Source: an uncultured Magnetospirillum sp.
GTDB lineage: Bacteria > Pseudomonadota > Alphaproteobacteria > Rhodospirillales > Magnetospirillaceae
Assembly (NCBI RefSeq): GCF_903853455.1
Contig: NZ_CAINTR010000008.1
Span: 62,001-126,000 of the forward strand
Direction: 5' to 3'
DNA: 64,000 nucleotides
The notes below the pieces were generated by a model. The model was not told where the DNA came from. It was given only the letters and a program-made list of their open reading frames with translations, and searched no databases. Positions 31,094 to 63,924 of this stretch are shown here, piece after piece (positions within the stretch are counted from its first letter, which is position 1; each line of letters begins with the position of its first letter). Made by a program: the position numbers and the translations under genes.

Positions 31094-31679
31094 GGGAATT
31101 CCAGTCGGAAAAGGCGAGGAAGGCACCGGACGGCAGCGGCTTGCCGGGATGATAGAGGTAGCGCTCGACCCCAGCCGGGAAATCGGGCTCGGCGAACACC
31201 TCTTCCAGGTCGTCAACGAAGGCGGCGCAGCGCAAGGCGCCGATGCGGGCGACCTTTTCCGTCCTCGTGGTGCAGAAATGCACGTTGGTCCGCTTCAGCC
31301 CGAAGCCGCTGTCGGCGAAAAAGCCCTGGACCTCCATCCAGGCCAAGGCGGCATGGCGCAGATTGATCCGGTCGGGATCGTAAGGCGCCGTCTCGGTCTT
31401 GTGGCTGATGATGGCGATGTCCCAGTCGCGCCGCTGGCACTCGGCCAGGAACTCGGCGACGCCCTCGATCAGGTCGGCCTCGGCCATCCGTCGGGCGTAG
31501 ACCTCGGCCTGCAGGCGCTGCCAAGCGATATCGGCCTCCGGCGACAGACGCACCAAGTCGCGCACCTGCTTCTTGGTGGTGGCACGGGCGGCACCGGGAA
31601 ACCCGGCCGCCACGGCGGCGTCGCGAAAGACGCGATCATAGCCGGCGATGGTGTTGTCGAAGTCGAGACCGATCAGCAC
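31062..31679 (-). CDS. HAD family hydrolase
   Basis: MLIGLDFDNTIAGYDRVF (DxDxT), AIISHKTET, CAAFVDDLEEVF. Confidence 0.85.
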   Translation of the reverse strand: MLIGLDFDNTIAGYDRVFRDAAVAAGFPGAARATTKKQVRDLVRLSPEADIAWQRLQAEVYARRMAEADLIEGVAEFLAECQRRDWDIAIISHKTETAPYDPDRINLRHAALAWMEVQGFFADSGFGLKRTNVHFCTTRTEKVARIGALRCAAFVDDLEEVFAEPDFPAGVERYLYHPGKPLPSGAFLAFSDWNSLGRHLFHRLG

Positions 31680-31744
31680 GGGGCAGGGTTCCTATTGCAA
31701 CATCAGCCGGATCTGGACGGATGCGAGGCCGGTCATGCCGCCCC

Positions 31745-45970: not shown

Positions 45971-47616
45971 GGGCCGGACTGGATGGCGGCGGGTTTGGCG
46001 TAGGGCCGGGCCGCATCCCAGGTGAAGAGATTGGGCTCGGATTCGGCGAAGCCCGACTGGCGCCAGAACTCCAGGCAGGGATGGTTGCGCTCGGTGGGGA
46101 TGGCGCGGGCCAGAACCCGCTTGGCTCCGGCGGCCCGCGCCGCCTCCACCGCCAGATGCAGCATGTACGGCTCCACCTGCCGGCCCATGGCGCGGCAACT
46201 GAGCAGGTAGTCGGCGATCTCCAGGTCGTCGCCCCGCCGCTCCCAACTGATCAGGCCGGTGAGGCCGAGATCGCCGAAGCGGTCGGCGACGCCGAGCGTC
46301 ATCACCTGGCGGCCCTCGCCCTCCGCCACCCAGGCCAGCAGCTCGGTCTCGGTCAGGCGGCGGGTGCGCAGGTTCAACTGGTTGGTCTTGTTAAGCAGTT
46401 GGACCGCGCGCTTGAGGTTGACCTCGTCCAACGGCGCCGCTTCCACCCTGATCTCCAGCGAGGCCAGCCAGTCCTCCAGGGAGGTGAAGGCGGCGACGCT
46501 GTCTTTACGCTGGCGCTCCACCACATACATGCCGGTGCGGTTGCGGTCTTCGGCGGTGATGGCGGCCTGCTCGAAACAGTCCAGCCGGCGCAGGGCGTCG
46601 CCGTAGAGGGTCGGGTCCTTGGGCCAGTCGGGGACCAGCACCTCGGGCAGGGCTTCGGCGACCCGGCCGCGCTCGGCGGGGTTATCGTCGATGAACACCA
46701 CCGACGACAGCCCCAGATTGAGCTCGGCCACCAGATCGGCCACGTTGCGGGCCTTGTCGGTCCAGTTGATGCGCCAGCCAGCCAGATCGCCGCGGCGCAG
46801 CACCATGGCGGGATGGTTGTCGATGGCGTCCAGCGCCACCGCCTCGTCGTTCTTGCTGACCAGCGCCACTTGGATGCCGCGCCGGGTCAGCGCCTTCAGC
46901 GCCTTCTGGAAATCGACGAAGGCCTCGCCCACATGGTCGTGGCCGCCCAGGCGCAGCTTCCGCCAGCCGACCTCGCCCACCACGCCCCCCCACATCGTGT
47001 CGTCCAGGTCCACCACCACCAGCTTGCGGCTTTGGCCCAGAGCGCCGCGCAGCGCCGCCTTGACATCGCGCGCCGCCGCCTGGCAGACCGGTTCGGTGAA
47101 TGGGCATTTGAGGGCGAACCAATGCTTGGCCGAGCGGGGACTCCCGTGGCCCGCCTCCAGCCAGCGGCCGGCATCCAGCAGATGGACGCCCCTGGCCCCG
47201 GCCAGCGCCTCGGCCAGCCGCGCGTTCATGCGGGCCAGCACATAGGCGGGACCCATCGGACTCCAGTCCAGCATCCCCAGGCCGCGGTCGTTGCGCGACG
47301 GCACCAGGGTGGCGACCAGCACCAGCGTCTTGCTGTCGGCAAAGCGGCGGATCAGTTGGGCGAAGGCCTCGGTCTCGGCCAGGAGGGCGTCCAGGTCGGC
47401 CGCCTCGCCGTCCAGCAGGCCGGCATAGCGCGGCGACACCCCCTCGGGCCGCGCCCACACCACCCCGACCCCGGCGGATGAGGGCGATTGCAGCGCCTGG
47501 AACAACTGGCCGAACGGGGCCTTGGCGACGGTGCAGACCGGCGTGGTCTGGTCGGCGGCAAGATAACGGCCGAAAACGTCGGTGTTGAAATCCGAGACCA
47601 GCTGGATTTCCGTCAT
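45967..47616 (-). CDS. HAD-IIIC family phosphatase / FkbH-like protein
   Basis: KLVVVDLDDTMWGGVVGEVGW (DxDxTxWGG), LVSKNDEAVALDAIDNHPAMVLR, VVFIDDNPAERGRVAEALP, C-terminal GNAT-like region. Confidence 0.94.
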   Translation of the reverse strand: MTEIQLVSDFNTDVFGRYLAADQTTPVCTVAKAPFGQLFQALQSPSSAGVGVVWARPEGVSPRYAGLLDGEAADLDALLAETEAFAQLIRRFADSKTLVLVATLVPSRNDRGLGMLDWSPMGPAYVLARMNARLAEALAGARGVHLLDAGRWLEAGHGSPRSAKHWFALKCPFTEPVCQAAARDVKAALRGALGQSRKLVVVDLDDTMWGGVVGEVGWRKLRLGGHDHVGEAFVDFQKALKALTRRGIQVALVSKNDEAVALDAIDNHPAMVLRRGDLAGWRINWTDKARNVADLVAELNLGLSSVVFIDDNPAERGRVAEALPEVLVPDWPKDPTLYGDALRRLDCFEQAAITAEDRNRTGMYVVERQRKDSVAAFTSLEDWLASLEIRVEAAPLDEVNLKRAVQLLNKTNQLNLRTRRLTETELLAWVAEGEGRQVMTLGVADRFGDLGLTGLISWERRGDDLEIADYLLSCRAMGRQVEPYMLHLAVEAARAAGAKRVLARAIPTERNHPCLEFWRQSGFAESEPNLFTWDAARPYAKPAAIQSGP

Positions 47617-47906
47617 GCGGCAAGCCGCTCCAAAATCAGGTCGGCCAGGGCGGCGGGGCTGCGCAGCCCGCCGGCGTCCTCGCCGAAATCGCTGTCGTCC
47701 AGCAGGCCGATCTCGGCACCGGCCAGAGTGGAAACCCGGCTCTCCACCGCCAGGATCAGCGTCACCAGCGCCAGCGAATCCAGGGCGCCGCCCTCGCCCG
47801 CCAGCAGCAGGTCGGGGGTCTTGGCCAGTTGCTCGGTCTCGGAGCGCAGGCCGTTCACCACGTCGATCGCCTGATAAACGATGTCCAGCGCGGTCGCCCT
47901 ATCCAT
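47613..47906 (-). CDS. Acyl carrier protein-like
   Basis: About 97 aa helical protein with LLLAGEGGALDSLALVTLILAVESRV (LDSL phosphopantetheine-site motif); ATGA overlap with FkbH-like gene. Confidence 0.8.
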   Translation of the reverse strand: MDRATALDIVYQAIDVVNGLRSETEQLAKTPDLLLAGEGGALDSLALVTLILAVESRVSTLAGAEIGLLDDSDFGEDAGGLRSPAALADLILERLAA

Positions 47907-47955: not shown

Positions 47956-47984
47956 TTATAGCCCGTTCACCGGATGAACGTCAA
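47956..47984 (-). promoter_or_regulatory. Promoter with embedded palindromic operator (site B) for the ACP/FkbH operon
   Basis: Minus strand TTGACG-TTCATCCGGTGAACGGG-CTATAA (17-bp spacer); GTTCA-N5-TGAAC at 47965-47979. Confidence 0.65.
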
Positions 47985-48835
47985 GCCGGGGCGCCGCTTT
48001 TGCCGGCGGGCGTCTTGACCGCCTCGGCGAAGACCGACCACTGGGGATGGCCGGTGTCGAAGCCGACGATGCGGCCCAGGGAGACCACATGCTCCAGGCC
48101 GAGGAAGTTGCCCTCGCCCCGCATTTCGGGCACCTGGCTGCCTTGCGGCCCGGTGCGGATCACCTGGGTGAAGCCGGCCGCCTTCAGCATGCGCTCCAGC
48201 TTGGGATAGTTGAACCAGTTGATGTGGTTGCCGCCATTGGCGATCTGGGTCTCGCGCGGCACCAGCCCGGTGTATTTGTCGGCGAAATCGTCCTTGGACA
48301 GGGACTGGAGGTCGGCGCGGACCTCCTCCAGCGGCGTCTGGCCGGCCATGCCGGTGGCGAAGGCGCGCAGGAAGGCCCATTCGATCTGGTCGAGCTTGTA
48401 GCGCTGATACTTGAACACCTCCATGTCGCGGCGGAAATAGGCGTCGTAGAGGATGTCGAAATCGGGCATGGACAGCCGCACCACCCCACCCGGCGCCAGA
48501 CAGCGATACAGCTCGGCGAAGATATGGTCGCAATATTCCTGGGGAATATGCTCCAGGGTGTGGGCCGAGTAGAAATACCGCACCGAGCCGTCGGCGAACG
48601 GCAGGGGGTCGTGGGTCATCAGGTTGACGTTGAAATCGACGTAGTCGAGCTTGTAGGGGTAGGACCCGGTCTTGTAATCCAGGCAGGTCCAGCCGGGACG
48701 GCAGAAATAGCCGCCGCCGATGTTGACGCGAAGCCCATCCTTGGGCGTTCCCGCCAGCTTCTTGGCCAGCAGCAGGATGGGCAGCAGGATCTTGTGCTCG
48801 ACCACCAGCCGCAGATACCGCAAGAAACCCGCCAT
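47981..48835 (-). CDS. Class I SAM-dependent methyltransferase
   Basis: RVNIGGGYFCRPGWTCLDYK, YSAHTLEHIPQEYCDHIFAELYRCLAPGGVVRLSMPDFD. Confidence 0.88.
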   Translation of the reverse strand: MAGFLRYLRLVVEHKILLPILLLAKKLAGTPKDGLRVNIGGGYFCRPGWTCLDYKTGSYPYKLDYVDFNVNLMTHDPLPFADGSVRYFYSAHTLEHIPQEYCDHIFAELYRCLAPGGVVRLSMPDFDILYDAYFRRDMEVFKYQRYKLDQIEWAFLRAFATGMAGQTPLEEVRADLQSLSKDDFADKYTGLVPRETQIANGGNHINWFNYPKLERMLKAAGFTQVIRTGPQGSQVPEMRGEGNFLGLEHVVSLGRIVGFDTGHPQWSVFAEAVKTPAGKSGAPA

Positions 48836-48875
48836 TCGTTCTCTCCTGTCCAGGCGACCGGATATAACACAAGCC

Positions 48876-50672
48876 CTATTGGTTCAGCACCCGCCAAACC
48901 GCCGCCGAAGCGTTGGGAATGCGGCTGAAATCGCACATATGGTCGAGGATGGCGTCGCGGTCGGGCACCTCGCCCGCCGCCAGCGCCGCCGCCAGCGCCT
49001 CGGCGTCGGCGTAAAGCGGCACCGGTCCCATCACCGCCGGATCGACGCTGTTGGGCTGCGGCACCAGGGCGTAATAGGGCTTGCCCGCCGCCAGGGTCTC
49101 CACCAGCGAACCGGAATCCGCCGGCCCGATCACCAGATCGGCCCAGACCATCTGCTGCGGCACCGAGCCGCCGGTGACGATCTCCAGGCCCAGGTCGAAT
49201 TCGCGGTCGAGGGCGGCCCAGGCCGCCGGCCCGAAGGCGGGATGGACCTTGAGGCGGATCTCCTGGTAGCCCAGCCGGCGCAGCATGCGGGTGACGTCGA
49301 CGATGTTGGAATAGGTGGTGCCGCGCAGCATGCGGAAATTGTAGATGGAACTGGTGCCGGGCAGCAGCAGCACCCGCCCCCGGCCCACCGGCGGCAGGCT
49401 CAGCGCCGCCGATCCCCGCCGCACCGGGTCGAGGCCGGGATAGCCGACGCGGGCGGTGGGCAGCTTTGAGCCGATGCGGCGCAGCCAGTCCTCCTGCGAC
49501 GGCCCCCAGGACAGCAGCCGCGACAGTTTGGGCGGGCCGCAACGGTCGCCGCAGCGGATGTCGTAGGCGCAGTCATGCACGAACATGCCGTTCAGCAGCT
49601 CGTCGGCGGGAATGCCGGCGGCATGGGCGGCCTCGACGATCAGCCGGCCCGAAGTGTTGGTGGCGTCGCCCACCACCACCCGGGCCACCCGATGGCGGGT
49701 CAGCAGGGCGCGGTAGGACTTGGCCTCGGCGGCGAAGTCCAGCAGCCGGCCGTTGGTGAGGATCTTCTCCTCCACATGGGCGCGCCGCGCGGCCTCCACC
49801 GGCGCGGCCGGCGGATGAGTCCGCCAATGCTCCCTTAAGTCTGCCGCCCCGGCCTCCAGCCGCCGCACCTCCTCCCTGGTGAGGGACAGACGCGGCAGGC
49901 TGGCCAGGGTGGCGCCGCGCCGCAGGCAATCCCGCAGGAAGGACAGGGACTTGGGCGAACGCTGGGCGATCAGCACGGTTCCCGCCGGCCCGCCCGGCCA
50001 GGACTCCAGCAACCCTTGCTCCATCAACGGGTTGAGGAAGAACAGCACGCCGCCGGTCTTGCGCCGGAACGGCCGCAGCAGGCGAAACGCCAGATCGGTG
50101 AGGTCGGCCAGCAGATTGCGCAGAACCGCCTTGGCCCCCTTGGGACGCAGCGGCGCGCCGATCCCCAGCACGTCGTGGAAATGGCGGATGTCGTCGGGCG
50201 GGTCGAGGCGATCCACCACCGTCAGCCCATGACTCGCCGCCAGGGCCTGGACCAGGATGCGCTTCTGGGTGTCGCCGACCTGGCCGTATTCGCCGCGCAG
50301 GTCGTAGAGCACCAGTTCCTTGGGGGCGTAAACGCGACAGAAGCCGTCCAGCGCATGCCACAGCCGCTGGAATCCCAGCACCGACAGCTCCACCTCGCGA
50401 TTGAGCGCCTTGGCGGTGGACATGCCATCCAGCAGACCGACCTCGCCGCCGGCCTCGATCATCCATTCGCCGTGGCGCAGCAGCACGTCGGCGGGCGGGT
50501 CGTAATCGCCCAACATGGCGTCCACATGGCGGACGGCGACGCCCTCCCGCTCCAACTGGCGGCAGGTCAGCCAATCGGTACTCACCACCAGCGCGCCGGG
50601 GCCGGCATTACGGGCGGCGTCGAGATGGCGGGGATGGCTGATCAGCACCAGCCGGGTGACGGGCTCGGCCAT
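48876..50672 (-). CDS. Putative GT-B-like surface-glycan protein of unknown function
   Basis: C-terminal RLGYQEIRLKVHPAFG...VWADLVIGPADSGSLVETLAAGKPYYALVPQPNS resembles GT-B C-terminal half. Confidence 0.5.
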   Translation of the reverse strand: MAEPVTRLVLISHPRHLDAARNAGPGALVVSTDWLTCRQLEREGVAVRHVDAMLGDYDPPADVLLRHGEWMIEAGGEVGLLDGMSTAKALNREVELSVLGFQRLWHALDGFCRVYAPKELVLYDLRGEYGQVGDTQKRILVQALAASHGLTVVDRLDPPDDIRHFHDVLGIGAPLRPKGAKAVLRNLLADLTDLAFRLLRPFRRKTGGVLFFLNPLMEQGLLESWPGGPAGTVLIAQRSPKSLSFLRDCLRRGATLASLPRLSLTREEVRRLEAGAADLREHWRTHPPAAPVEAARRAHVEEKILTNGRLLDFAAEAKSYRALLTRHRVARVVVGDATNTSGRLIVEAAHAAGIPADELLNGMFVHDCAYDIRCGDRCGPPKLSRLLSWGPSQEDWLRRIGSKLPTARVGYPGLDPVRRGSAALSLPPVGRGRVLLLPGTSSIYNFRMLRGTTYSNIVDVTRMLRRLGYQEIRLKVHPAFGPAAWAALDREFDLGLEIVTGGSVPQQMVWADLVIGPADSGSLVETLAAGKPYYALVPQPNSVDPAVMGPVPLYADAEALAAALAAGEVPDRDAILDHMCDFSRIPNASAAVWRVLNQ

Positions 50673-51361
50673 CAGCCCCGATCCGCCAGCAGCAGCTCGG
50701 CCAGCCGGAAGTCCAGGACGCTGTCGATGTCCACCGAACGTTCGGCCGGCATGACATAGCCGACCGTGCCCTCGGCCATGAAGGTCAGCGACTGACGGAA
50801 CCAGGGAATCTTGGCGACGAACACCGCCCCGTTGGCGGCGAAGGCGGTGGGCAGGTCCTGACGCCGGGTGACGCCGCCGGACTCCAGCAGCCGCGACAGC
50901 CGGCCCTGCTCGTCCATGCGGTACATCCAGTAGGGCGACTTGGCCGCCTCGGTCACCCCGACGCAGGCGGGAGCGTCGGCGGCGACGCAGGCGGCCAGCG
51001 CCGCTTCCAGGTCCTCGGCCAGCCGCAGCGGCGAGGTGGGCTGCAGCAGCACCAGCAGGTCGAACGCCTCGTCCAGGGCGTCCAGGGCATGGATCACCAC
51101 CGGCGCCGAGGGGGTGTCGTCGCGGGCCAGCTCGGGCGGACGCACGAAGGGAGCCTCGCAGCCAGCCGCCACCGCCGCCGCGATGATGGCGGGGTCGTCG
51201 GACGAGATCACCACCCGGTCGATAGAGGGCGCCGCCAGGGCCTGCTCCACGCTCCAGGCCACCAGCGGCTTGCCACCCAGCGGCCGGATGTTCTTGCCCG
51301 GCAGCCCCTTGGAGCCGCCGCGCGCGGTGATCAGGGCGAGAACCTTGCGTCCGGCGATCAT
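50672..51361 (-). CDS. legF: Acylneuraminate cytidylyltransferase (CMP-nonulosonate synthetase, LegF/NeuA-like)
   Basis: VLALITARGGSKGLPGKNIRPLGGKPLVAWSVEQAL, LLVLLQPTSPLRLAEDLEAAL, SVDIDSVLDFRLAE. Confidence 0.88.
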   Translation of the reverse strand: MIAGRKVLALITARGGSKGLPGKNIRPLGGKPLVAWSVEQALAAPSIDRVVISSDDPAIIAAAVAAGCEAPFVRPPELARDDTPSAPVVIHALDALDEAFDLLVLLQPTSPLRLAEDLEAALAACVAADAPACVGVTEAAKSPYWMYRMDEQGRLSRLLESGGVTRRQDLPTAFAANGAVFVAKIPWFRQSLTFMAEGTVGYVMPAERSVDIDSVLDFRLAELLLADRG

Positions 51362-51368
51362 AATTCTC

Positions 51369-52037
51369 TCATTTCCGGCACGTGATCAGCCATTCGCGCA
51401 CCTCCCTGGTGCGGTTGCGGTCGGTGCGGATGACGTAATCCAGGGCGATGTCGGGGAAGACGCCGTAGAGGCCGGGGATCTCCTCCTCGGCGGTCAGGCG
51501 GATCAGGCCATATCCCTTGTTGAACGGGCCGTCGGGGATTTCCAGGAAGGTGTTGGGCTCGCCCTCCATCCTGCGGCCGGTGGCCTCGCCGCTGGTGCCG
51601 GTCATGAAGGCCTTGGAGAACAGCAGCCCGCCGGGTTTGAGCACCCGGTGGGCCTCGGCGACGATGCGGCGCGAATCCGCCAGCGTGTTGGCGTAGATGC
51701 ATTCGATGTCCAGCACGCAGTCGAAGCTGGCATCGGCGTAGGGCAGCTCCATGGCGTCGCCCTGGTCGAGGCGCGCCGCCAATCCCCGCTCGGCCAGCCG
51801 CTCGGCGGCGCGGTCCAGCCCGACCCGGCTGCCGTCCAACCCGGTGGCGTCGAAACCCTCGCCGGCCAGGAACACCATGTTGGCGCCGGCGCCGCAGCCG
51901 ATTTCGAGGAATTTCACCGCCTTGCGATCAGGGGCACCGAAATAGGTGCGCCCGATGAACCGCACCAGCTCCTCCGGGGGATATTTCCCCCAGTCCTTGG
52001 CGCTGAATACGTCGTCCCAGCCAGGATTCCACATCAT
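51369..52037 (-). CDS. Class I SAM-dependent methyltransferase
   Basis: VKFLEIGCGAGANMVFLAGEGFDATGLDGSRVGLDRA, FDCVLDIECIYAN, EAHRVLKPGGLLFSKAFM. Confidence 0.92.
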   Translation of the reverse strand: MMWNPGWDDVFSAKDWGKYPPEELVRFIGRTYFGAPDRKAVKFLEIGCGAGANMVFLAGEGFDATGLDGSRVGLDRAAERLAERGLAARLDQGDAMELPYADASFDCVLDIECIYANTLADSRRIVAEAHRVLKPGGLLFSKAFMTGTSGEATGRRMEGEPNTFLEIPDGPFNKGYGLIRLTAEEEIPGLYGVFPDIALDYVIRTDRNRTREVREWLITCRK

Positions 52038-53080
52038 CGATACCTGTATTTGAGAAAGCGTCCGCCGAACCGTTCGACCAGATCGGGATGGTCTTGCGCC
52101 CAGCCGGCGCAGACCGAATCATAGGCGGCACGGTCGATCATCACCTTGCCGAAGCGGAAGGTGGTCCGCTCGGGCGAATAGCCCGCCTTGAAGCGCAGCA
52201 GGCTGTCGTCGGCAGCGGCGGTGCGGCCGCCGCCATAATGCAGCCGCTCACGCCCACCGCCCAGCAGGTCCATGGTGACGGCGTGGCGCAGCAGGTTGTT
52301 GGGGCCGAACGCCGTGTAGGCCTTCAGCGACGACGACAGATGGTAATGGGCCCAGCGCGCCGACAGCAGGATCAAGGCGCCGCCCAGCACTTCCCCCTCC
52401 CGCTCGGCCAGGTAAACCCGCCACGAATTCGCCCCCAGGCTGGGGATGGCGCGGAAATAGTCGTCGCCGAAGAAGTAATCCTCGTGGGCATCCAACTCGC
52501 GCATATGGGTCTCGTAGAGACGGGCGAAGACCTCCAGCGCCGCCTGATCGGCGCGCCCGGTCACCACCACCCCGGCCTGCTCGGCCTTACGCACCTTGCG
52601 CCGGGTCTCGGAGGCATAACCGGCCAGCACGGTGTCGCGGTCCTTGGACAGGGTCAGGGCCACGGTCTGGCGGTCGTCGATCACCGTCACCGCCCCATGC
52701 GCCGCCCAGCGGTGGTTGTCCAGCAGCGGGTGAAAGCGGATGAAGCCGCAGACGACGCCACGGGCGCGGCAATGCGCCACCAGTGCCTCCCACGCCGCCG
52801 CCAGAAACGCCGCGTCGTCGCTGGTGGACAGCGGCCCGCCATAGCCGTAGGCGGTCTCGAAGTCGAACAGCGGCCGGTCGGACTGGCTTTCGATCTCCCG
52901 CACCAGCCAGGGCAGCAGGAAGGTCTCGCCGCCCTGCTCGAACACGAACAGTTCGTTGACGTCGCCCGGCCGGGCGTAGAGGGCGGCGTAGGCGGGACGG
53001 AAATAGACGTCGGCGAGACCGCCCAATCCATCGAGCAGGCGGTTCCAGGACCCGTGATCTTGGATCAGGCGGACGCTCAC
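52034..53080 (-). CDS. FemAB/GNAT-like peptidyl or acyl transferase
   Basis: GTG start; CGFIRFHPLLDNH, ALTLSKDRDTVLAGYASETRRKVRKAEQAGVVV, GGALILLSARWAHYHLSSS, LHYGGGRTAAADDSLLRFKAGYSPE (FemAB pattern). Confidence 0.85.
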   Translation of the reverse strand: MSVRLIQDHGSWNRLLDGLGGLADVYFRPAYAALYARPGDVNELFVFEQGGETFLLPWLVREIESQSDRPLFDFETAYGYGGPLSTSDDAAFLAAAWEALVAHCRARGVVCGFIRFHPLLDNHRWAAHGAVTVIDDRQTVALTLSKDRDTVLAGYASETRRKVRKAEQAGVVVTGRADQAALEVFARLYETHMRELDAHEDYFFGDDYFRAIPSLGANSWRVYLAEREGEVLGGALILLSARWAHYHLSSSLKAYTAFGPNNLLRHAVTMDLLGGGRERLHYGGGRTAAADDSLLRFKAGYSPERTTFRFGKVMIDRAAYDSVCAGWAQDHPDLVERFGGRFLKYRYR

Positions 53081-54111
53081 CGCAGGTCGGCCCATTGCAG
53101 CGGCTCGTCCTCGGCCAGGGCACGGTTGACGGTGAAGCCGGCCAGCCGGTCCAGGTCTTCGGGCTCGATGCCGCCGCCGGGGCGCTTGCAGGTCAGCATC
53201 TCAGGCCGCAGCACGGTGCCGGCGGCGATGGGTACCAGGGCCACCACGCCGCGGCGGATGCCGTTCATGTTGGCGATCTCGGCCTTGGTCGGGCGCTTGA
53301 CGCCGTCGCCCAGCATGGCCTCGATGCGGCGGATGGAGGCCACATAGGCAGCCAGCCCGGCCGGGTCCAGCGAGGCCTGATGGTCGGGACCGGGCAGCGA
53401 GCGGTCGAGGGTGAAGTGCTTTTCCACGATCGCCGCCCCCATGGCCACGGCGGCCAGCGAGGCTTCCGAGCCCAGGGAATGGTCGGACAGGCCCACCGGC
53501 AGGCCGAAGGCATGGCCCAGCGTCACCATGGCGCGCAGGTTGATCTGGTCGTCGGGGGCGGGATATTCCGAAGTGCAGTGCAGCAGGGCCAACGGCCCGA
53601 CGCCGCCTTTGCGCAGCGCCGCCACCGCCTTTTCCACCTCGCCCAGGGTGGACAGGCCGGTGGACAGGATGGCGGGACGGCCGGTACGGCCGATAGCCTC
53701 CAGGTACTGAAGATGGGTGACCTCGGTGGAGCCGATCTTGACGATGGGCATGTCCAGCTCGCCCACCAGGAAGGCCAGGCTGTCGAAGCCGTCGGGGGTG
53801 GACAGGAACAGGATGTTCCGGCTCTCGGCATGGGCCTTCAGCTCGCGGAACGCCGGATAGGGCAGGGCCAGCCGGCAGGACAGCTCGTAGCGGCTTTCCG
53901 CCGCGTCGGTGGTGGTCTCCAGATAGTCCACCTTGTAGGCGAACTTGCCGGTGATCTCGCCCGGTCGCCAGGTCTGGAACTTGACCGCGTCGGCCTTGGC
54001 CTCGGCGGCCACGTCGATCAACCGCTTGGCGCGGGCGATGTCGCCGTCATGGTTGACGCCGGCTTCGGCGATGATGAAGGCACGGCCGGCAGTGGCATAG
54101 GGCAGGGTCAT
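53077..54111 (-). CDS. legI: N-acetylneuraminate/legionaminate synthase (NeuB/LegI family)
   Basis: FIIAEAGVNHDGDIARAKRLIDVAAEAKADAVKFQTW, PIVKIGSTEVTHLQYLEAIGRTGRPAILSTG, LLHCTSEYPAPDDQINLRAM, GLSDHSLG, EKHFTLDRSLPGPDHQASL, C-terminal SAF. Confidence 0.94.
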   Translation of the reverse strand: MTLPYATAGRAFIIAEAGVNHDGDIARAKRLIDVAAEAKADAVKFQTWRPGEITGKFAYKVDYLETTTDAAESRYELSCRLALPYPAFRELKAHAESRNILFLSTPDGFDSLAFLVGELDMPIVKIGSTEVTHLQYLEAIGRTGRPAILSTGLSTLGEVEKAVAALRKGGVGPLALLHCTSEYPAPDDQINLRAMVTLGHAFGLPVGLSDHSLGSEASLAAVAMGAAIVEKHFTLDRSLPGPDHQASLDPAGLAAYVASIRRIEAMLGDGVKRPTKAEIANMNGIRRGVVALVPIAAGTVLRPEMLTCKRPGGGIEPEDLDRLAGFTVNRALAEDEPLQWADLR

Positions 54112-55277
54112 GGCGAGGGGGTATCCACGAAGCTCTTGCGGATCAGACCGTCGAGCGGATGGGTGGCGAGGATGTCGCGGATGCGCTCCGAGGCATGGCC
54201 GTCGCCGAAGGGGTTGACCAGCCCGGCCAGTCCGGCGCGAAACCCGGGCGACAGCAGCCGGCGCAGAGCGGCGGCGATGGCGGCGGCTTCGGTGGGGCAG
54301 TCGATGATGGAGGCGGCGCGCAACCGGCCTTTCTGGCGGTCGCCGATATTGACGGTGCCGATGCCGAAGCTGGGCACCTCGATCAGGCCGGAGGAGGAAT
54401 TGCCGACCACGCCGGAGACCAGCGCCAGGGCCGACAGATAGCCCTGATGGCCCAGCGACTTGACCGCCACGGCACGGCCAGGGCGCGTCGCCACGAAAGC
54501 CTCCACGGCGGCGGCGATGGCGCGGCCGCCGGCATCGGCATTGACCCCGGTGAAGATCAGCCGGACGTCGTCCTCGATCCCGGCCAGGGCGGCCAGCAGC
54601 TCGGCCACCTGACGCTCGGGGGCCAGGGCCGACAGGGTCTCGGGATGGAAGGTGACCAGCAGCGAGCGCTGGCCCAGGTCCAGCCCCAGCCGCGCCTCCA
54701 GCTCGGCGCGCGGCAGACGCTGGCCGTCGCGGATGGCGTCCAGCCCGGTGGAGCCCACCACGAACACCCGCTCCGGCGCCTCGCCCATCTGGACGATGCG
54801 GCGGCCATAGGCCTCGATGGCGGTGAAATGGAGGTGGGCCAGCTTGGTGATGGCGTGGCGGATGGCATCGTCCACCGCGCCTTCGGTCAACTGTCCGCCG
54901 GCGATATGGGCCAACGGCAGGCGCAGCGCCATGGCGGCGCTGGCGGCACCCAGCATCTCGTAGCGGTCGCCGAACACCAGGACGAGATCGGGCGTGAGGC
55001 GGGCGAAGGCCTCGGCCAGGCCCATGGTGGCCAGGGCCAGCGACTTGGCCATGCCGAGGCCGCTGTCGGAGGCCAGCACGATCTCCACCCGCTCGGCGAT
55101 GGCCACGCCCTCGGCCTCGATCTCGGTGACCGTCATGCCGAATTCGGGAGCAAGGTGAGTGCCGGTGACCACCACCAGCGGCTCGGTCCGCCCGTCCTCG
55201 GCCAGCAGCCGGATCAGCCGCGACAGCAGGCCGTATTCGGCCCGCGACCCGGTGACAATGGCGATCCGGCGCTTCAT
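54108..55277 (-). CDS. legG: UDP-N-acetylglucosamine 2-epimerase, hydrolysing type (NeuC/LegG-like)
   Basis: IAIVTGSRAEYGLLSRLIRLL, LVLVFGDRYEMLGAASAAMALRLPLAHIAGGQLTEGAVDDAIRHAITKLAHLHF, VVGNSSSGLIEVPSFGIGTVNIGDRQKGRLRA. Confidence 0.94.
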   Translation of the reverse strand: MKRRIAIVTGSRAEYGLLSRLIRLLAEDGRTEPLVVVTGTHLAPEFGMTVTEIEAEGVAIAERVEIVLASDSGLGMAKSLALATMGLAEAFARLTPDLVLVFGDRYEMLGAASAAMALRLPLAHIAGGQLTEGAVDDAIRHAITKLAHLHFTAIEAYGRRIVQMGEAPERVFVVGSTGLDAIRDGQRLPRAELEARLGLDLGQRSLLVTFHPETLSALAPERQVAELLAALAGIEDDVRLIFTGVNADAGGRAIAAAVEAFVATRPGRAVAVKSLGHQGYLSALALVSGVVGNSSSGLIEVPSFGIGTVNIGDRQKGRLRAASIIDCPTEAAAIAAALRRLLSPGFRAGLAGLVNPFGDGHASERIRDILATHPLDGLIRKSFVDTPSP

Positions 55278-56632
55278 TCGAACGTCACGATACCGCGCAG
55301 GTCCATGCGCTGGTCCAGATAGCGGTGCTTGCCGATGCGGGTGCGCGGAATGTCGTCCACCAGCTGCACCTCGATGTGGAATCCGGCCAGGATGGCGCCG
55401 ATGCGCCGTTCCAGCAGGGCCTTGACCACCGCCGGATCGTCAGCGGCCAGTTCGGCCTCGGGCTGGATCAGGATGGTCAGCGCGCCGGCCTGCTCCTGGA
55501 TCACCCGGAACTCGCGGATGCCCTTCCAGTCCATGTCGTTGTAGTTGAACACCGCCGGGGCCAGCGGGGTGGGATGGCCGGCGGCGTCGATGACGAAGTC
55601 CTGGAAGCGGCCCTCGACCCCTTTCAGGATCTTGTAATGGCGACCGCAGGGGCAGTCCTGGCTGTCACCGAGATAGCCGATGTCGCCGGTGCGGTAGCGG
55701 ATCAGCGGCATGGTGGGATTGTTGAAGCCGGTCACCACCATCTCGCCGCGCCCGCCCGGCTCGGTGACGTCGCGGCCCTGCTCGTCCAGCAGTTCCACGA
55801 TCCCCACCTGGGGCAGGAAGTGCAGGGCGTCGGAGTGCTGGCAGGGAAAGCCGGCGGCGCAGGCCTCGGTGTGGCCGAAGATGTTGATCAGCCGGGCCTG
55901 GAAGGCGCGCTCGATCATGGTGCGCTGGCCGTCGGTCAGATATTCGCCGTCGCAGGCGATGGTGCGGATGGGCCGGATCTCCAGCCCGTCCTGCAGGATG
56001 TACTTGGCCAGCGGCAGGATGGAGGACGGCCGCGTGTGGATATAGCGCGGCGCGAAGGCGTTGATCTCGGCCACATAGGCCGGGGCGGTCTCGGCGGTGA
56101 TGTGGTAGCACGACATCACCAGCTTGCGGCCGTCCTCCACCCGCCAGTAGCGGTTCTCGGCCAGGATCTCGGGGGCGAGCTTGTCGCCGTAGAGCCGCAC
56201 CGAGCGCCAGTTGAAGACGTCGAGGCCAAACGTCTCCATGTAGTGGTTGGTGCAGGCCTTGTCGCGGGCCAGGAAGTCGTCGTCGTACCAGATGGTCAAG
56301 GGCGTGCCGGTGCTGCCGCCGGTGGTGCGGTGGCGCAAAGTGGCGCGGTCCGCGTTGTCGGCCAGGAAGGCGTCGGGATCGGCCTGGATCGCCCGCTTGT
56401 CGATGATGGGAAAGCGCTTGAGGTCGGCCAGGGTGACGATGTCGTCGGGTCCGAACCCGGCCGCCGCCATGGCGCGGCCATAGGCCGGCACCCTGGCATG
56501 GGCGTGGCGCACCAGCCGCCGCAGGGAATTCAGCTGGTACTCGTCCTGCTGCCGGCGCGACCAGAACTGGCTCTGCTCGAGGAAGATCCGGCGTTCGACG
56601 AAGATCGGATTGGAAAAAGGATCGGCGCTCAC
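55274..56632 (-). CDS. Phenylacetate-CoA ligase-like AMP-dependent ligase (CapK-like)
   Basis: GTG start; RHRTTGGSTGTPLTIWYDDD (AMP-binding loop), NIFGHTEACAAGFPC, LIRYRTGDIGYLG, CPCGRHYKILKGVEGR. Confidence 0.92.
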   Translation of the reverse strand: MSADPFSNPIFVERRIFLEQSQFWSRRQQDEYQLNSLRRLVRHAHARVPAYGRAMAAAGFGPDDIVTLADLKRFPIIDKRAIQADPDAFLADNADRATLRHRTTGGSTGTPLTIWYDDDFLARDKACTNHYMETFGLDVFNWRSVRLYGDKLAPEILAENRYWRVEDGRKLVMSCYHITAETAPAYVAEINAFAPRYIHTRPSSILPLAKYILQDGLEIRPIRTIACDGEYLTDGQRTMIERAFQARLINIFGHTEACAAGFPCQHSDALHFLPQVGIVELLDEQGRDVTEPGGRGEMVVTGFNNPTMPLIRYRTGDIGYLGDSQDCPCGRHYKILKGVEGRFQDFVIDAAGHPTPLAPAVFNYNDMDWKGIREFRVIQEQAGALTILIQPEAELAADDPAVVKALLERRIGAILAGFHIEVQLVDDIPRTRIGKHRYLDQRMDLRGIVTFE

Positions 56633-57798
56633 CGTTCGCCCTCCCCGGCAAGGCGTGGACTGGACGGAATGTTGATCAGCCGGGCGGCGACGCTGTCGGT
56701 CACCTTCAACTCCATGCGTGGGCAGTCGGCGTACATGGGCAGGTGGTGCATGGGAGTCCAGGCCGGCCGGCATTGCAGGCCGCGCTGGTTGGACAGGGTC
56801 AGCACCGGCTCCAGCAGGGCTTCGTTGCCCGGCTCCAGCAGCGCCACGTTGAGCCAGTAATTGCTGCGGCCGAAATCAGTCTCGACGAAGGCGCGGATGC
56901 CGGCCAGCGGCGCGAAGGCGGCATGATAGCGCCCGGCCAGCAACCGCTTGCGCTCGAGGAAACCGGGCAGCCGCTCCAACTGGGCGCAGCCGATGGCGGC
57001 GTTGACGTTGGGCAGGCGGTAGTTGTAGCCCACCATGTCGTGGCGGAATTCGAACGGATGGGGCTGCTTGGCGGTGGTGGTGAGGTGCTTGGCCCGCTTG
57101 GCCAGCTCGGCGTCGTTGGTGAGGATGGCGCCGCCGCCGCCGGTGGTGACGATCTTGTTGCCGTTGAAGCTGAGCGACGCCAGCTTGCCGTGATTACCGG
57201 TGTGGCGACCCTTGTAGGTGCTGCCCAGGCTTTCGGCGGCGTCCTCCACCAGCGGCAGGCCGAAGCGCTCGCACACCGCCACCAGCGGATCCAGATCCAC
57301 CGGATGGCCGAAGGTGTGCATGCAGACCACGGCGCGGATCGGCCGCCCGGTCAGGCGGTTGACGACACAGCCGTCGCCGGGACGGGCGATGTCGGCCAGA
57401 TAGTCCGCCAGCCGGGCCGGGTCGAGGCCCAGGGTCCGCTCCTCGATCTCGGCGAAATGGGGCGTGGCGCCGCAATAGGCCACGGCGTTGGCGGTGGCGA
57501 CGAAGGTCAGCGACGGGATGATCACCTCGTCGCCGGAACGCACCCCGGTCAGCAGCAGGCCGGCATGCAGGGCGGCGGTGCCGTTGACCACCGCAACCGC
57601 GAAGCCGGCGCCGGTAAACTCGGCCAGCATCTTTTCGAAGCGGTCCACATAGGCGCCTACGGTGGAGACCCATTCGGTGTCGAGGCATTCCTTGACATAG
57701 GTCCACTCGTTGCCGGCGATCTCGGGGGCGTGCAGCAGCGCCTTGCCGCCGGTGACGCTTTCGATGGCGGCGACCACCTGTTCGGCGGTAAGCGTCAT
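56629..57798 (-). CDS. legC: LegC family DegT/DnrJ/EryC1 aminotransferase
   Basis: LHAPEIAGNEWTYVKECLDTEWVSTVGAYVDRFE, VNGTAALHAGLLLTGVRSGDEVIIPSLTFVATANAVAYCGATPHF, LSFNGNKIVTTGGGGAILTND (PLP Lys). Confidence 0.94.
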   Translation of the reverse strand: MTLTAEQVVAAIESVTGGKALLHAPEIAGNEWTYVKECLDTEWVSTVGAYVDRFEKMLAEFTGAGFAVAVVNGTAALHAGLLLTGVRSGDEVIIPSLTFVATANAVAYCGATPHFAEIEERTLGLDPARLADYLADIARPGDGCVVNRLTGRPIRAVVCMHTFGHPVDLDPLVAVCERFGLPLVEDAAESLGSTYKGRHTGNHGKLASLSFNGNKIVTTGGGGAILTNDAELAKRAKHLTTTAKQPHPFEFRHDMVGYNYRLPNVNAAIGCAQLERLPGFLERKRLLAGRYHAAFAPLAGIRAFVETDFGRSNYWLNVALLEPGNEALLEPVLTLSNQRGLQCRPAWTPMHHLPMYADCPRMELKVTDSVAARLINIPSSPRLAGEGER

Positions 57799-59816
57799 GC
57801 CCGCGCCTCCTTCTCCACCTGATAAAAGAACATGTCCGGCGAGGCGTATTCCGCCATCTTGCGCAGCGTCAGGTTGATGTTGTTCGAGCGGAACTGCTCG
57901 AACCGCGATCTGAGCGCGCTGCGCTGGGCATCCGCCAGCGTGAGGTGGTAGCTCACGGCGCCGGCATAATCGGCGATGGGATGGGTGTGGCCGTCCCGCT
58001 TCCACGCCAGCACGTCGTGGGACACCGCCAGCCGGCGTTCGTCGGCAAAGCCGCTCTCGTCGATGTCGATGCGGGCGGCGGCGGTGAAGCGCAGCACGTC
58101 GTCGAAACGGGCCAGCGCGTCGGGCCGGTCGGCCGCCAGTCCCCGGAACACCGTCCGCAGCATGGCCTCGAACGCGCCGGCGCAATGCAGCAGCAGCCGC
58201 GCGGTGTAGACGTAGTTGAGCTTGCCGTAGGAGCCGTCGCCCAGCTTGTCGAAATTCTCCGGCACCGACCAGAATTCGGCCAGTTCGTCGTAGGTGCCGA
58301 AGCGCTCGGTGTCCTGGTCGTGCTCGAAATCGGCCTTCAGCGCCGCCAACTCACCTTCGCCCTTGGGCCAGGCGGCGATGGCGGCCAGGGCGAAGTCCAC
58401 CGGATGAACGCCCGCCTCCTGGCGGACCAGCTGCATCAGGTCATGGTAATAGCCGCGCCCCCACATCATCTGGAGCAGGAAGTGGATGTAGCGGAACGAA
58501 CTCAGTTCCTCGAAGCTCATGGTCGAGGTGGCCAGCACGATCTCCTGGCCCTCGAACAGCTTGCGGCCGTCATAGATGCCGAAGGCGTTGTCATGCAGCC
58601 GCCAGCCGGTGCGCTTGAAATAGGCGGCGCGGGATTGGGCGCCCTCCATCTTGGTGCCGGGCAGGAGGTGGAGATTGTAGTTGAACACCTCGGCGCCGAT
58701 ATCCATCAGCGTCTTATTGGCATCGATATGGGTCTGCCAAGTCTCTTCCGGCAAGCCGACGATCAGCTCGGACACCATGCGGGTCTGGATGCCCTCGTCG
58801 GCGAGACGCCGGTTCAGCGTGATGACCTCGCCGATGGGCAGGTTCTTGCGCTCGATGGCCTTGAGGGTCGGCGGATGGAAACTCTGCATGGAAGCCCCCA
58901 CCTGCGACAATCCGCGCATCTGGCGCACCGCCTCGAACACCCGGTCGGGGCGGGTCTTGTTCCACTGGGCGTTGACCCGAAGCGGAAAGCCCTTGTCCTG
59001 GCTGCGCTCGTACAGGCGGGCCGCGAACAGGGCGTCGCGCTCCAGGATGCCGAAATTGGCGTCGCCGACGAACAGGCTGGTGGACTGGGTGCAGTGATCG
59101 GCGATGTAGTCGATCTCGGCCATCACCCGGGCCTCGCTGAAGCGGGCCAGCTTCTCGTTGCCGATGCCCCAGGCGCAGAAGGTGCAGCGATAGGGGCACG
59201 AGCGGTTGGTCTCGATGATCGGCGAAATGGGTTCTTCGAAGAACTCGTCCATCATGCCGTTGAGATAGGGCGACGGAATGACGTCGAGATCGTCCAGCGC
59301 CTTCAGCGACTCGCCCACATGGATGCGGCCACCGGCTCCCAGGTCGTTGACCAGACAGCCGGCCACCGGATCGCGGCGCAGCCGGACGGGATCGCCGCCC
59401 AGGTCGAGGAAGCGCCCCAGCAGCTCGGCGAAGCCGCGCTCGCCCTGGTTCAGCACGAAGGCGTCAAAATCGGGCGAACCGGCGAAGAACGGGGTGGCGC
59501 CCTCGGATGAAGCGTTCATGGAGGTGAAGATGGGGCCGCCACCCACCAGCAGCACCGCCGGATTGGCTTCGCGGGCGATCTCGGCGATCAGGCGGTTGAG
59601 GTTGACGTTCCACACATAGTGGGACAGGGCGACCACGTCCGGGCGTTCGGCCCGAATCGCCTCGATCATCCGCTCGGGACGCTTGAACAGCCGGATATCG
59701 AGGGGCTCGGTCAGCTGGGTGCGGGCGTAACCGGACACGAAGCCGATATTGATCGGCATGGTCCAGATGCCGATCTTGCCCCAGGTGTGAACCAGGTCCC
59801 CGAGAAAAACCTTCAT
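57795..59816 (-). CDS. B12-binding domain radical SAM protein
   Basis: N-terminal B12-binding-like domain (PDVVALSHYVWNVNLNRLIAEIAREANPAVLLVGGGPIF), ETNRSCPYRCTFCAWG (CxxxCxxC). Confidence 0.93.
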   Translation of the reverse strand: MKVFLGDLVHTWGKIGIWTMPINIGFVSGYARTQLTEPLDIRLFKRPERMIEAIRAERPDVVALSHYVWNVNLNRLIAEIAREANPAVLLVGGGPIFTSMNASSEGATPFFAGSPDFDAFVLNQGERGFAELLGRFLDLGGDPVRLRRDPVAGCLVNDLGAGGRIHVGESLKALDDLDVIPSPYLNGMMDEFFEEPISPIIETNRSCPYRCTFCAWGIGNEKLARFSEARVMAEIDYIADHCTQSTSLFVGDANFGILERDALFAARLYERSQDKGFPLRVNAQWNKTRPDRVFEAVRQMRGLSQVGASMQSFHPPTLKAIERKNLPIGEVITLNRRLADEGIQTRMVSELIVGLPEETWQTHIDANKTLMDIGAEVFNYNLHLLPGTKMEGAQSRAAYFKRTGWRLHDNAFGIYDGRKLFEGQEIVLATSTMSFEELSSFRYIHFLLQMMWGRGYYHDLMQLVRQEAGVHPVDFALAAIAAWPKGEGELAALKADFEHDQDTERFGTYDELAEFWSVPENFDKLGDGSYGKLNYVYTARLLLHCAGAFEAMLRTVFRGLAADRPDALARFDDVLRFTAAARIDIDESGFADERRLAVSHDVLAWKRDGHTHPIADYAGAVSYHLTLADAQRSALRSRFEQFRSNNINLTLRKMAEYASPDMFFYQVEKEARA

Positions 59817-59819
59817 GGG

Positions 59820-60986
59820 CTATGCCTCTGCCGCCGGGTAATCGATGGCGTAGTTGCCGAAGAAGCTGGCCGGCTGCTCCACATTGCGGAACAGGCCCGA
59901 GCGCAGGGCGGCGATCAGCTCGGACACCCCGTCGTGGACGGTGTAGCGCGGCTGGAAGAACAGCCGCTCGCGGATCTTGGTGAAATCGACCCGGTAGTTG
60001 CGCGGGTCGCTGCCATGCTGCTGGTAGCCGACCTTGGCGTCGGGCAGCTGGGTCAGGATGGCGTCGACGATCATCTGCTTGGTGAAGTTGTTGACCTCGC
60101 CGCCGGCGTTGAACACCTCGAAGGCGACACGTTCGGGCTTGGCCTCCAGCACCCGGCGGATCACCTCGGAAAAGTCGCCCAGATGGCAATAGGGCCGCCA
60201 GGTATGGGCGTCGTAGACCACCAGTTCGTGCCCCAGATACATGGCGCGGGTGAACTCGGAGACGGTGAGGTCGAAGCGCATGCGGGGCGACAGGCCGAAG
60301 GCGGTGGCGAAGCGCAGCACCGTGGTCTGGTAGTCCACCCGGCCCTTGATGCCCAGCAACGCCGTCTCCATGGCCACCTTGGCCTTGGCGTAGAGCGACA
60401 GCGGCGACAGCTCGTAATTCTCGTCGGCCAGGGTGTCCTGGGGGATCAGGCCGTAATTGGAACAGGTGGAGACGAACACCACCCGGTTGAGGCCGCGGCC
60501 GTCGAGGCGGTCGATCAGGGCCAGCATGCCGTCGTGATTGATGCGCTGGGATTCGTTCGGGTACTTCTTGGTGATGGGGTCGCCCACCAACCCGGCCAGG
60601 ATCACCACGTCGGTGACGCCCTCCAGGCAGGCTTCCATGTGGTCGCGGTCGGCGTAGTCGCCTTGGACGAATTCATAGCCGGGGCGGCCGAGGAAGGGCA
60701 GCACGGTTAGCTGGTTGTGATAAAGCAGCAGATCCTGGCTGCGGACCCGGTAGCCCTGGCGCAGCAGTTGCTCGGTCAGCACGCTGCCGATATAGCCGGC
60801 GCCGCCGACGATCAGGACCAGCCGCTCCTCCAGGCCGCGCGGCGCCAGCACCGACTCCGCCACCCGCAGCGATTCCTCGAACAGCTCGACCTGATAGGCT
60901 TCGGGCAGGTGGGCGTTGTTGACGAAGGCCACCGTTTTGGCGCGTTCGAACTGCTGGTGGGACAGGCCCTTGCGGATGGCGGTCAT
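59820..60986 (-). CDS. NAD-dependent epimerase/dehydratase (SDR-e)
   Basis: VLIVGGAGYIGSVLTEQLLRQGYRVRSQD, VFVSTCSNYG, LSLYAKAKVAMETALL (YxxxK), YCHLGDFSEVIRRVL. Confidence 0.93.
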   Translation of the reverse strand: MTAIRKGLSHQQFERAKTVAFVNNAHLPEAYQVELFEESLRVAESVLAPRGLEERLVLIVGGAGYIGSVLTEQLLRQGYRVRSQDLLLYHNQLTVLPFLGRPGYEFVQGDYADRDHMEACLEGVTDVVILAGLVGDPITKKYPNESQRINHDGMLALIDRLDGRGLNRVVFVSTCSNYGLIPQDTLADENYELSPLSLYAKAKVAMETALLGIKGRVDYQTTVLRFATAFGLSPRMRFDLTVSEFTRAMYLGHELVVYDAHTWRPYCHLGDFSEVIRRVLEAKPERVAFEVFNAGGEVNNFTKQMIVDAILTQLPDAKVGYQQHGSDPRNYRVDFTKIRERLFFQPRYTVHDGVSELIAALRSGLFRNVEQPASFFGNYAIDYPAAEA

Positions 60987-61675: not shown

Positions 61676-61704
61676 TTCTACCGCGTTCATGCCATGAACG
61701 TCAA
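61676..61704 (-). promoter_or_regulatory. Promoter with embedded palindromic operator (site C), upstream of the regulator gene
   Basis: Minus strand TTGACG-TTCATGGCATGAACGCG-GTAGAA (17-bp spacer); perfect GTTCATG-C-CATGAAC palindrome 61685-61699. Confidence 0.65.
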
Positions 61705-61761: not shown

Positions 61762-63924
61762 ATGAAACAGGTCATCCAAAGTGCCAAATCCGGCAAGCTG
61801 AGCTTGCGCGAAGTCCCGGAACCCCGCGTGCGGTCGGGCCATCTGCTGGTGGCGACGCGCGCCTCGCTGATCAGCGCCGGCACCGAGCGTCTGGTCATCG
61901 ACTTCGCCCGCAAGAGCCTCGCCGCCAAGGCCTCGGCGCGGCCCGACCTGGTGCGCAAGGTGGTCGACAAGGCCCGGCGCGACGGCATCGTCTCCACCTT
62001 CAAGGCGGTGATGGCCCGGCTCGACGAGCCGCTGCCGCTGGGCTATTCCGCCGCCGGCCGGGTGGTGGCGGTGGGCAACGGCCTGGAGGGCGCCTTCGCC
62101 GTCGGCCAGCGGGTCGCCATGGCCGGGGCCGGCCTGGCCAACCATGCCGAACTCAACGTGGTGCCGCGCAACCTCGCCGTCGCCATTCCCGACGGAATCG
62201 CCGACGAGGAGGCCGCCTTCGGCACCGTCGGCTCCATCGCCCTGGCGGGAGTCCGCACCCTGGGCAGCCAGTTGGGCGACGTGGTGGCGGTGCTGGGCGT
62301 CGGCCTGATCGGCCAGATGGCGGTTCAACTGCTGAGTCTGGCCGGCGCGCGGGTCGTCGCCCTCGATATGAATCCGCAACGATTGGCCCTGGCCAAGGCC
62401 ATGGGGGCCGAGCTGACCTGGAGCCTGGGCGAGCCCGGCCTGCCCGAGGCGGTTGCCGCCCTGACCGGCGGGGTGGGCTGCGATTCGGTGCTGATCGCGG
62501 CGGCCACCGATTCGTCGGAGCCGCTGGCCTTGGCCGCCGAGCTGGCCCGCGACCGGGCGCGGGTGGTGCTGGTGGGCAAGACCGGCACCGAATTCGACTA
62601 CGCCGCCTATATGAAGAAGGAGCTGACCCTGACGGTGTCACGCTCCTACGGCCCCGGCCGCTATGACGAGGATTTCGAGGGGCGCGGCGTCAAGTATCCG
62701 GTCGGCTGGGTCCGCTGGACCGAGACCGAGAATCTGCGGGAAGTGGTCCGCCTGATGAGCCCCGGCCTGACCCGGCGCCTCGACGTGGGCGCCCTGATCA
62801 CCCACCGCTTCGCCTTCGAGCAGGCCGAAAGCGCCTATGAGCTGGTCACCGGCGGCACCACCCCCCATCTCGGCGTGGTGCTGCGCTACGACGACACCGC
62901 CAAGGCCGCCCCGGTCACCGCCTTCCCCGCTCCCAAGACGGCGGCCGGCACCTGTGTGCTGGGGGTGATCGGCGCCGGCAACTTCGCCCGCACCGTGCTG
63001 CTGCCCGAACTGGCCCGCATCCCCAAGCTGGAGATGCGCACCATCTGCACCCAGCGCGGCGCCACCGCCGAGCATGGCCAGCAGACCTTCGGCTTCGCCC
63101 ATGCCACCACCGACCTGGACGAGGTCCTGAACGACCCCGCCATCAACGCGGTGCTGGTGGCCACCCGCCACGGCAACCACGCCGAAATGACCGCCCGGGT
63201 GCTGGCGGCGGGCAAGTCGGTTCTGGTGGAAAAGCCGCTGGCCCTGGACCGCGCCCAGTTGGAACAGGTGCGGACCGCCCGCCAGGGCTCGGCCGGCTTC
63301 TTCCTGGTCGGCTTCAACCGCCGCTTCGCCCCTATGACCGTCAAGGCCAAGGCCCATCTCGCCCGCCATGCCGGCCCCAAGGTGCTGGTGCTACGGGTCA
63401 ACGCCGGGGCGCTGCCGGCGGAAAGCTGGGTCAACGCGGCGGAGGAAGGCGGCGGCCGCATCCTGGGCGAGCTGTGCCATTTCGTCGATCTCGCCCGCGC
63501 CCTGATCGGCGCTCCCATCGCCACCGTCCAGGCCGACGCCGCCGCCGTCACCCATGGCGGCTGCGACGATCTGGCGGTGTCGCTGACCTTCACCGACGGC
63601 TCGCTGGCCACCATCGTCTACACCGCCCTGGGCGACACGTCGCACAGCAAGGAACGCTTCGAGTGTTTCGCTGGCGGAACGGTTGTCACCCTCGACAATT
63701 TCCTGACCCTCGCGGTCACCTCGGGCGGCCGCACCAAGGTCGAGAAGTCGCTCGGCCAGGACAAGGGCCACCGCGCCGAGCTGGAGGCCTTCGTCACCGC
63801 CGTGGCCCATGGCGGTCCCGCGCCGGCCGACGAGGCCGAGTTGATCGAAACCAGCCTTGCCACCATCGCCGTGCTGGAGAGTCTGCGCGACGGGCGGCGA
63901 GTCCATCTGACCGAGGCGCCATGA
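61762..63924 (+). CDS. Bi-domain oxidoreductase: zinc-type MDR alcohol dehydrogenase (N) + Gfo/Idh/MocA (C)
   Basis: N-term PLGYSAAGRVVAVGNGLEGAFAVGQRVAMAGAGLANHAEL, VVAVLGVGLIGQMAVQLLSLAGARVVALDMN; C-term LGVIGAGNFARTVLLPEL, VLVEKPLALDRAQLEQV. Confidence 0.93.
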   Translation: MKQVIQSAKSGKLSLREVPEPRVRSGHLLVATRASLISAGTERLVIDFARKSLAAKASARPDLVRKVVDKARRDGIVSTFKAVMARLDEPLPLGYSAAGRVVAVGNGLEGAFAVGQRVAMAGAGLANHAELNVVPRNLAVAIPDGIADEEAAFGTVGSIALAGVRTLGSQLGDVVAVLGVGLIGQMAVQLLSLAGARVVALDMNPQRLALAKAMGAELTWSLGEPGLPEAVAALTGGVGCDSVLIAAATDSSEPLALAAELARDRARVVLVGKTGTEFDYAAYMKKELTLTVSRSYGPGRYDEDFEGRGVKYPVGWVRWTETENLREVVRLMSPGLTRRLDVGALITHRFAFEQAESAYELVTGGTTPHLGVVLRYDDTAKAAPVTAFPAPKTAAGTCVLGVIGAGNFARTVLLPELARIPKLEMRTICTQRGATAEHGQQTFGFAHATTDLDEVLNDPAINAVLVATRHGNHAEMTARVLAAGKSVLVEKPLALDRAQLEQVRTARQGSAGFFLVGFNRRFAPMTVKAKAHLARHAGPKVLVLRVNAGALPAESWVNAAEEGGGRILGELCHFVDLARALIGAPIATVQADAAAVTHGGCDDLAVSLTFTDGSLATIVYTALGDTSHSKERFECFAGGTVVTLDNFLTLAVTSGGRTKVEKSLGQDKGHRAELEAFVTAVAHGGPAPADEAELIETSLATIAVLESLRDGRRVHLTEAP

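Follow-up and report, generated by a model that had tools for sequence, protein, structure and literature searches.

WggR (ExpG) of Sinorhizobium meliloti is a MarR-type regulator encoded in an EPS locus that binds palindromes at its own promoter and at several EPS operon promoters, and it works together with PhoB, mainly as an activator of galactoglucan synthesis (PMC3233446). Polysaccharide operons are also associated with RfaH and other NusG paralogues, and a survey of RfaH describes its cluster CL4 as associated with an HTH regulator (PMC7593976). Here we have analyzed a window of 64,000 nucleotides from an uncultured Magnetospirillum sp., in which a winged-helix regulator is encoded within a polysaccharide/EPS locus that includes NeuB, NeuC-type, NeuA-type, epimerase, aminotransferase and transporter genes. 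It resembles WggR in being MarR-type, EPS-located and linked to palindromes, a likeness of description. The best NCBIfam match of the regulator is TIGR04176 MarR_EPS (MarR family EPS-associated transcriptional regulator), with 62.1 bits over residues 7-85, a score that falls short of the curated cut-off (88 bits). Both share a related winged helix and the polysaccharide locus, but the TIGR04176 model covers 105 positions whereas the window regulator carries an extra Rossmann-like domain. In the open-access literature we found no paper on the operator sequence described below, or on the operator or function of TIGR04176.

The winged helix is shared with the Lrp/AsnC family as well: residues 8-51 match PF13412 HTH_24 (2e-10, 40.4 bits against a gathering score of 21.9), the only Pfam match at E <= 0.001, and superpose on Mycobacterium tuberculosis LrpA (2qz8; Z 9.3, 49 residues, 1.3 A). 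In contrast to that family, the C-terminal pieces gave no RAM (AsnC_trans_reg)-type Pfam model even at E <= 10, and no Pfam family could be assigned to them. In the AlphaFold model this alpha/beta domain is confident (pLDDT about 90-97 across most of residues 91-190), the join between the two domains being less certain, and it resembles instead the lobes of periplasmic-binding/LacI-type proteins (Z about 11, about 9% identity). As Foldseek returned no match to the model below E 0.001, this comparison gives a fold type and not a function; a sequence search for relatives of solved structure found none. Table 1 collects the features of the locus; the gene model was built from codon usage, the glycan part was annotated with Pfam, and operon limits were inferred from strand and spacing.

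Table 1. Regulator, predicted promoter, operators and presumed operons in the window
Feature	Position	Strand	Sequence or content
Operator A	26919..26933	-	GTTCACAACGTGAAC; TTGACG 26938-26933, TTATAG 26915-26910
Presumed operon A	23298..26849	-	Radical-SAM/SPASM protein, ABC transporter, methyltransferase
Operator B	33391..33405	-	GTTCACGAATTGAAC; 7 bp upstream of -35 TTGACC 33383-33378; -10 CTATAG 33360-33355; overlaps end of gene 33355-35091
Presumed operon B	26910..33277	-	HldE-like PfkB/cytidylyltransferase, 31062-31679, 30116-31033, transketolase N and C halves, two further genes
Operator C	47965..47979	-	GTTCATCCGGTGAAC; TTGACG 47984-47979, CTATAA 47961-47956
Presumed operon C (six genes)	41486..47906	-	Small 97-aa protein, HAD-like, 351-aa protein, MaoC-domain, polysaccharide deacetylase, CBS/nucleotidyltransferase
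Operator D	61685..61699	-	GTTCATGGCATGAAC; in the regulator's own promoter, conserved upstream of orthologues
Regulator operon promoter (predicted)	61676..61704	-	-35 TTGACG 61704-61699, 17-bp spacer, -10 GTAGAA 61681-61676
Regulator, 208 aa	61022..61648	-	AsnC-type winged helix and Rossmann-like alpha/beta C-terminal domain; Shine-Dalgarno AGGAG before ATG 61648
Presumed operon D (genes after regulator)	47981..60986	-	Epimerase, radical SAM/B12, DegT aminotransferase, AMP-binding-like, UDP-GlcNAc 2-epimerase (NeuC type), NeuB, GNAT/FemAB, methyltransferases, cytidylyltransferase (NeuA type)
Divergent dehydrogenase	61762..63924	+	Zinc dehydrogenase and GFO/IDH/MocA domains

We propose, with a probability of about 0.8, that GTTCA-N5-TGAAC is the operator of this winged-helix protein, which would repress its own operon and three further surface-glycan operons. 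The minus strand of the regulator promoter reads TTGACG-TTCATGGCATGAACGCG-GTAGAA, as described in the first-pass annotation, and it does contain the 15-bp perfect palindrome reported there, with two corrections: the central base is different (GTTCATG-G-CATGAAC on the minus strand), and the palindrome is not wholly inside the 17-bp spacer because its first G is the last base of TTGACG, so that 14 of the 15 bases lie within. Together with its flanks (61684-61700) it extends to a perfect 17-mer palindrome, CGTTCATGGCATGAACG. The window holds exactly four matches to GTTCA-N5-TGAAC, all at the operators of Table 1. The order at A, C and D is TTGAC, operator, spacer and TATA-like box, read on the minus strand in all three cases, TTGAC plus palindrome being present with zero mismatches, and the 20-mer TTGACGTTCAN5TGAAC recurs at 26919-26938 and 47965-47984. 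These three sites do share one promoter context; the 33391 copy is a real site in a different context, as it departs by three bases from TTGAC plus palindrome, lacks TTGAC directly before the operator and stands ahead of a promoter with 17 bp between TTGACC and CTATAG. Operator D could possibly control the divergent 61762 gene as well.

Chance can be ruled out as the origin of the four sites by shuffling, by a first-order model, by genome clustering and by footprinting. Allowing one mismatch, the window has five sites against 0.70 expected, and none of 100 shuffles reached five; the first-order model expects 0.02 exact palindromes and 0.00002 20-mers per window. Pattern searches of the whole genome (5.18 Mb in 223 contigs, Magnetospirillum group) found only five exact palindromes, four of them inside the glycan locus and within 35 kb, a clustering with a simulated P of about 8e-6, so the motif is not abundant away from promoters and glycan genes. 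Furthermore, a profile built from the orthologues' operators scored the four window sites at 20.2-23.7 and the next window site at 10.9, and its top score on ten random windows was 17.0. The one-mismatch site at 58395 lies in a coding region without a promoter and was taken as a chance match, and the fifth genomic exact site (C35:23259) has a context conserved in genomes with and without the regulator and belongs to something else. The relaxed pattern GTTCRN5YGAAC was at control level genome-wide, and an Rfam scan of the window gave no matches. The alphaproteobacterial LexA/SOS box is a direct repeat, GTTC-N7-GTTC; identity with it was rejected, the present operator being an inverted repeat that tracks the wHTH gene.

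The link between motif and regulator gene is borne out by phylogenetic footprinting. Regulator relatives are encoded in 18 of the 55 family genomes, and nearly all of them have the palindrome or one of its variants GTTCGCGCCGTGAAC, GTTCGCGGTATGAAC and GTTCACGCGCCGAAC directly before the gene. One of these genomes has tandem regulator copies (G031:C93:15331-16998; L017, L024), the second with a TAG stop within the matched stretch. We have also examined 80 named relative loci from Rhodospirillales, other Alphaproteobacteria and some Gammaproteobacteria (40-84% identity, most 43-55%), in which the exact palindrome occurs within 200 bp upstream in 72 and with at most one mismatch in 76, while 59 control palindromes with permuted arms, again at one mismatch or less, matched a mean of 0.32 loci and a maximum of 2. 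Three exceptions (L093, L094, L103) have exact palindromes before a co-directional RfaH-like gene preceding the regulator, and L082 is cut at a contig end with 7 bp of upstream sequence, so that all 79 testable named loci carry the palindrome. Across the 80 loci (1.2 Mb), 114 exact palindromes lie at regulator promoters and 11 elsewhere, where control arms average 0.9. As the same site precedes regulator relatives in two bacterial classes, the regulator itself almost certainly binds it, and the comparison of sequences comes close to being decisive for autoregulation.

The layout of promoter D recurs in most orthologous promoters, in which the operator lies between or directly beside the regulator's own -35 and -10, as expected of an autorepressor. 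TTGAC or TTGAT directly precedes an operator in 61 of the 80 promoters, and others have a TATAGT-like -10 directly before it. Promoter D holds a single operator copy, and most orthologue promoters two or more; tandem copies are usually 22-23 bp apart from start to start, about two helical turns, as expected for neighboring dimers on one face of the DNA. In 14 loci (L042, L049, L051, L054, L055, L071, L073, L076, L080, L085, L086, L087, L096 and L101) the predicted ATG start is located inside the operator (GTTCANNNNATGAAC), which in most of them sits right after a TATAGT -10; this predicts a leaderless mRNA in which the operator doubles as the start of the coding sequence.

The association extends to true members of TIGR04176. 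A phylum sample gave 17 matches above the cut-off, 16 of them testable because L174 begins at a contig end, and 12 of the 16 (L161-L165, L167-L171, L173 and L186) have the exact palindrome upstream, suggesting that the operator is an old property of this winged helix. The members without it are L166 and L172, from one bacterial family, and L175 and L176, which have open frames of about 700 residues.

Presence and absence of the regulator point in the same direction. Among 217 genomes of the order, 84 with the regulator and 133 without it, the 20-mer occurs in 47 carriers and in 2 non-carriers (Fisher 6e-22), an association that is partly built in because 47 of the 62 20-mer sites lie in the regulator's own promoter; the reversed control pattern is found in none of the 217. 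Counting only sites outside the own promoter, 12 of the 84 carriers and 2 of the 133 non-carriers have them (P 3e-4). The 20-mer separates carriers from non-carriers, unlike the bare palindrome, whose counts do so poorly because the single copies inspected in non-carriers are mostly in open frames and none stands beside TTGAC.

Conservation of the targets could be demonstrated for A and B, site C having no demonstrated orthologue. Operator A is kept before orthologous proteins of 86% (G048), 85% (G049) and 61% (G043) identity, on a different contig from the regulator in the sister species G048 and G049 and 35 kb from it in G043, and it is absent before the 89% identical protein of G040, a genome without the regulator. 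The B operator is kept in G048 and G049 at the end of a 578-aa gene, with a 4-bp gap to the -35. In four related genomes (G038, G039, G043 and G047) another operator copy is present inside a B-type operon, between the orthologue of 30116-31033 and the transketolase gene; it lies just before transketolase-N (L134:1718, L136:1738, L137:1707, L138:1767), versus the operon head in the window. A separate conserved palindrome, GTTCAACTGTTGAAC or GTTCAACACTTGAAC, was seen near a TGTATGAT/TGTATAGT box in four of the genus's genomes (L005:1501-1515, L130:1703, L121:1501, L127:1784), including one that lacks the present regulator, and is probably the operator of another regulator.

According to the model that we favor, a regulator dimer would bind the palindrome with each winged helix reading one GTTCA half-site, covering the -35/-10 spacer at A, C and D and the stretch just upstream of the -35 at B. 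RNA polymerase would thus be kept off the covered promoters, and the regulator would repress its own operon and the three other operons for surface-glycan synthesis. A small-molecule ligand of the Rossmann-like C-terminal domain, perhaps a nucleotide sugar or some other metabolite of the pathway, could alter DNA binding, and this feedback would keep the glycan pathway in step. The sites, their clustering and the way they are conserved alongside the regulator and at two of the targets are direct observations, while binding by the 61022-61648 protein, repression, the dimer and the ligand are inferred. The sign of regulation is read from promoter geometry: operators are placed between elements of normal spacing, directly after the -10, or at a small varying distance upstream of the -35, positions that suit blocking of the polymerase better than activation from a fixed face of the DNA, so repression is quite strongly favored. 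Moreover, with normal spacing and near-consensus -35 boxes, the promoters do not look as if they need an activator. The earlier proposal, in which the wHTH protein acts as a repressor of its own gene and of these operons, stands firmly as to the tie between motif and regulator, and as a geometric argument as to repression itself.

The regulator could instead bind the same sites and activate some or all of the operons, as is mostly the case for WggR, the one related EPS regulator for which we found the sign measured (PMC3233446), or act both ways depending on a ligand. An activator could sit at operator B, upstream of the -35 with a gap of 7 or 4 bp, and promoter D has a weak -10 (GTAGAA). Blocking, in contrast, suits operators that occupy a 17-18-bp spacer of normal length, as at A, C and D, or that directly follow the -10, as in other orthologues. 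Across species, upstream operators lie at distances of 0 to 7 bp from the -35 that do not differ by whole turns; we regard activation as unlikely. It is less probable still that some other DNA-binding protein reads the palindrome and that the regulator gene is just one of its targets. The two genomes without a detected regulator that hold one 20-mer each would fit such a protein, as would the similar GTTCAACTGTTGAAC palindrome at another conserved place, also in a regulator-less genome; against it, the site follows the regulator family over two bacterial classes down to 35-45% identity, it is found with true TIGR04176 members, whose resemblance to the regulator is confined to the winged helix, and the A site is missing where the regulator is missing.

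About as improbable, or slightly more so, is that autoregulation alone is real and that chance or relict promoter similarity accounts for the three other sites. Most named loci do have no operators outside their own promoter within 20 kb, which such a restricted role would predict, yet the window has four exact copies where 0.02 are expected, A and B are kept with their genes in sister species, and the same transketolase operon contains a site in four related genomes. We consider the autoregulated winged-helix repressor a well supported model and the finding itself real.

The relatives of the regulator frequently have a partner that is missing here. An RfaH-like NusG paralogue adjoins the regulator in 71 of the 80 named loci (L025-L104), directly after it in 61, for example at L034:10621-11124, and before it in 10, as in L051, and the genes further downstream are mainly sugar-nucleotide epimerases/dehydratases, aminotransferases and glycosyltransferases. 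The four RfaH-like proteins sampled scored 105-139 bits versus the TIGR01955 cut-off of 144.5. This pairing is shared by most regulator relatives, but neither the window genome (G000) nor G048 and G049 have an RfaH-like gene adjoining the regulator; each has only one weaker match, probably the housekeeping NusG. As a tentative idea, and one we hold with considerable doubt, the regulator family might supply the transcriptional half of a glycan switch with two steps: by also limiting an RfaH-like antiterminator of the same operon, the autorepressor would allow one signal to open long polysaccharide operons to initiation as well as elongation; the Magnetospirillum clade of the window might then have lost the antiterminator and rebuilt control via operator copies at separate operons. 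A simple correspondence between RfaH loss and more operators was not clean, G043 and G034 having both RfaH-like genes and extra sites.

The type of control is familiar, an autoregulated winged-helix regulator with a small regulon, but the family is undescribed in that respect within the open-access literature searched, and what sets this regulator apart is its unusual domain make-up and the missing RfaH-like partner of its relatives. The surface-polysaccharide regulators of this widespread group, known so far only by an automatic name, gain a candidate DNA site, a regulon and a testable mechanism, and scanning any genome for the operator would allow prediction of the glycan operons that are switched together. 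Finally, through the RfaH-like link the control of initiation would be coupled to that of elongation in polysaccharide loci, and this locus, where the RfaH-like gene is absent, offers a case for studying regulatory rewiring.
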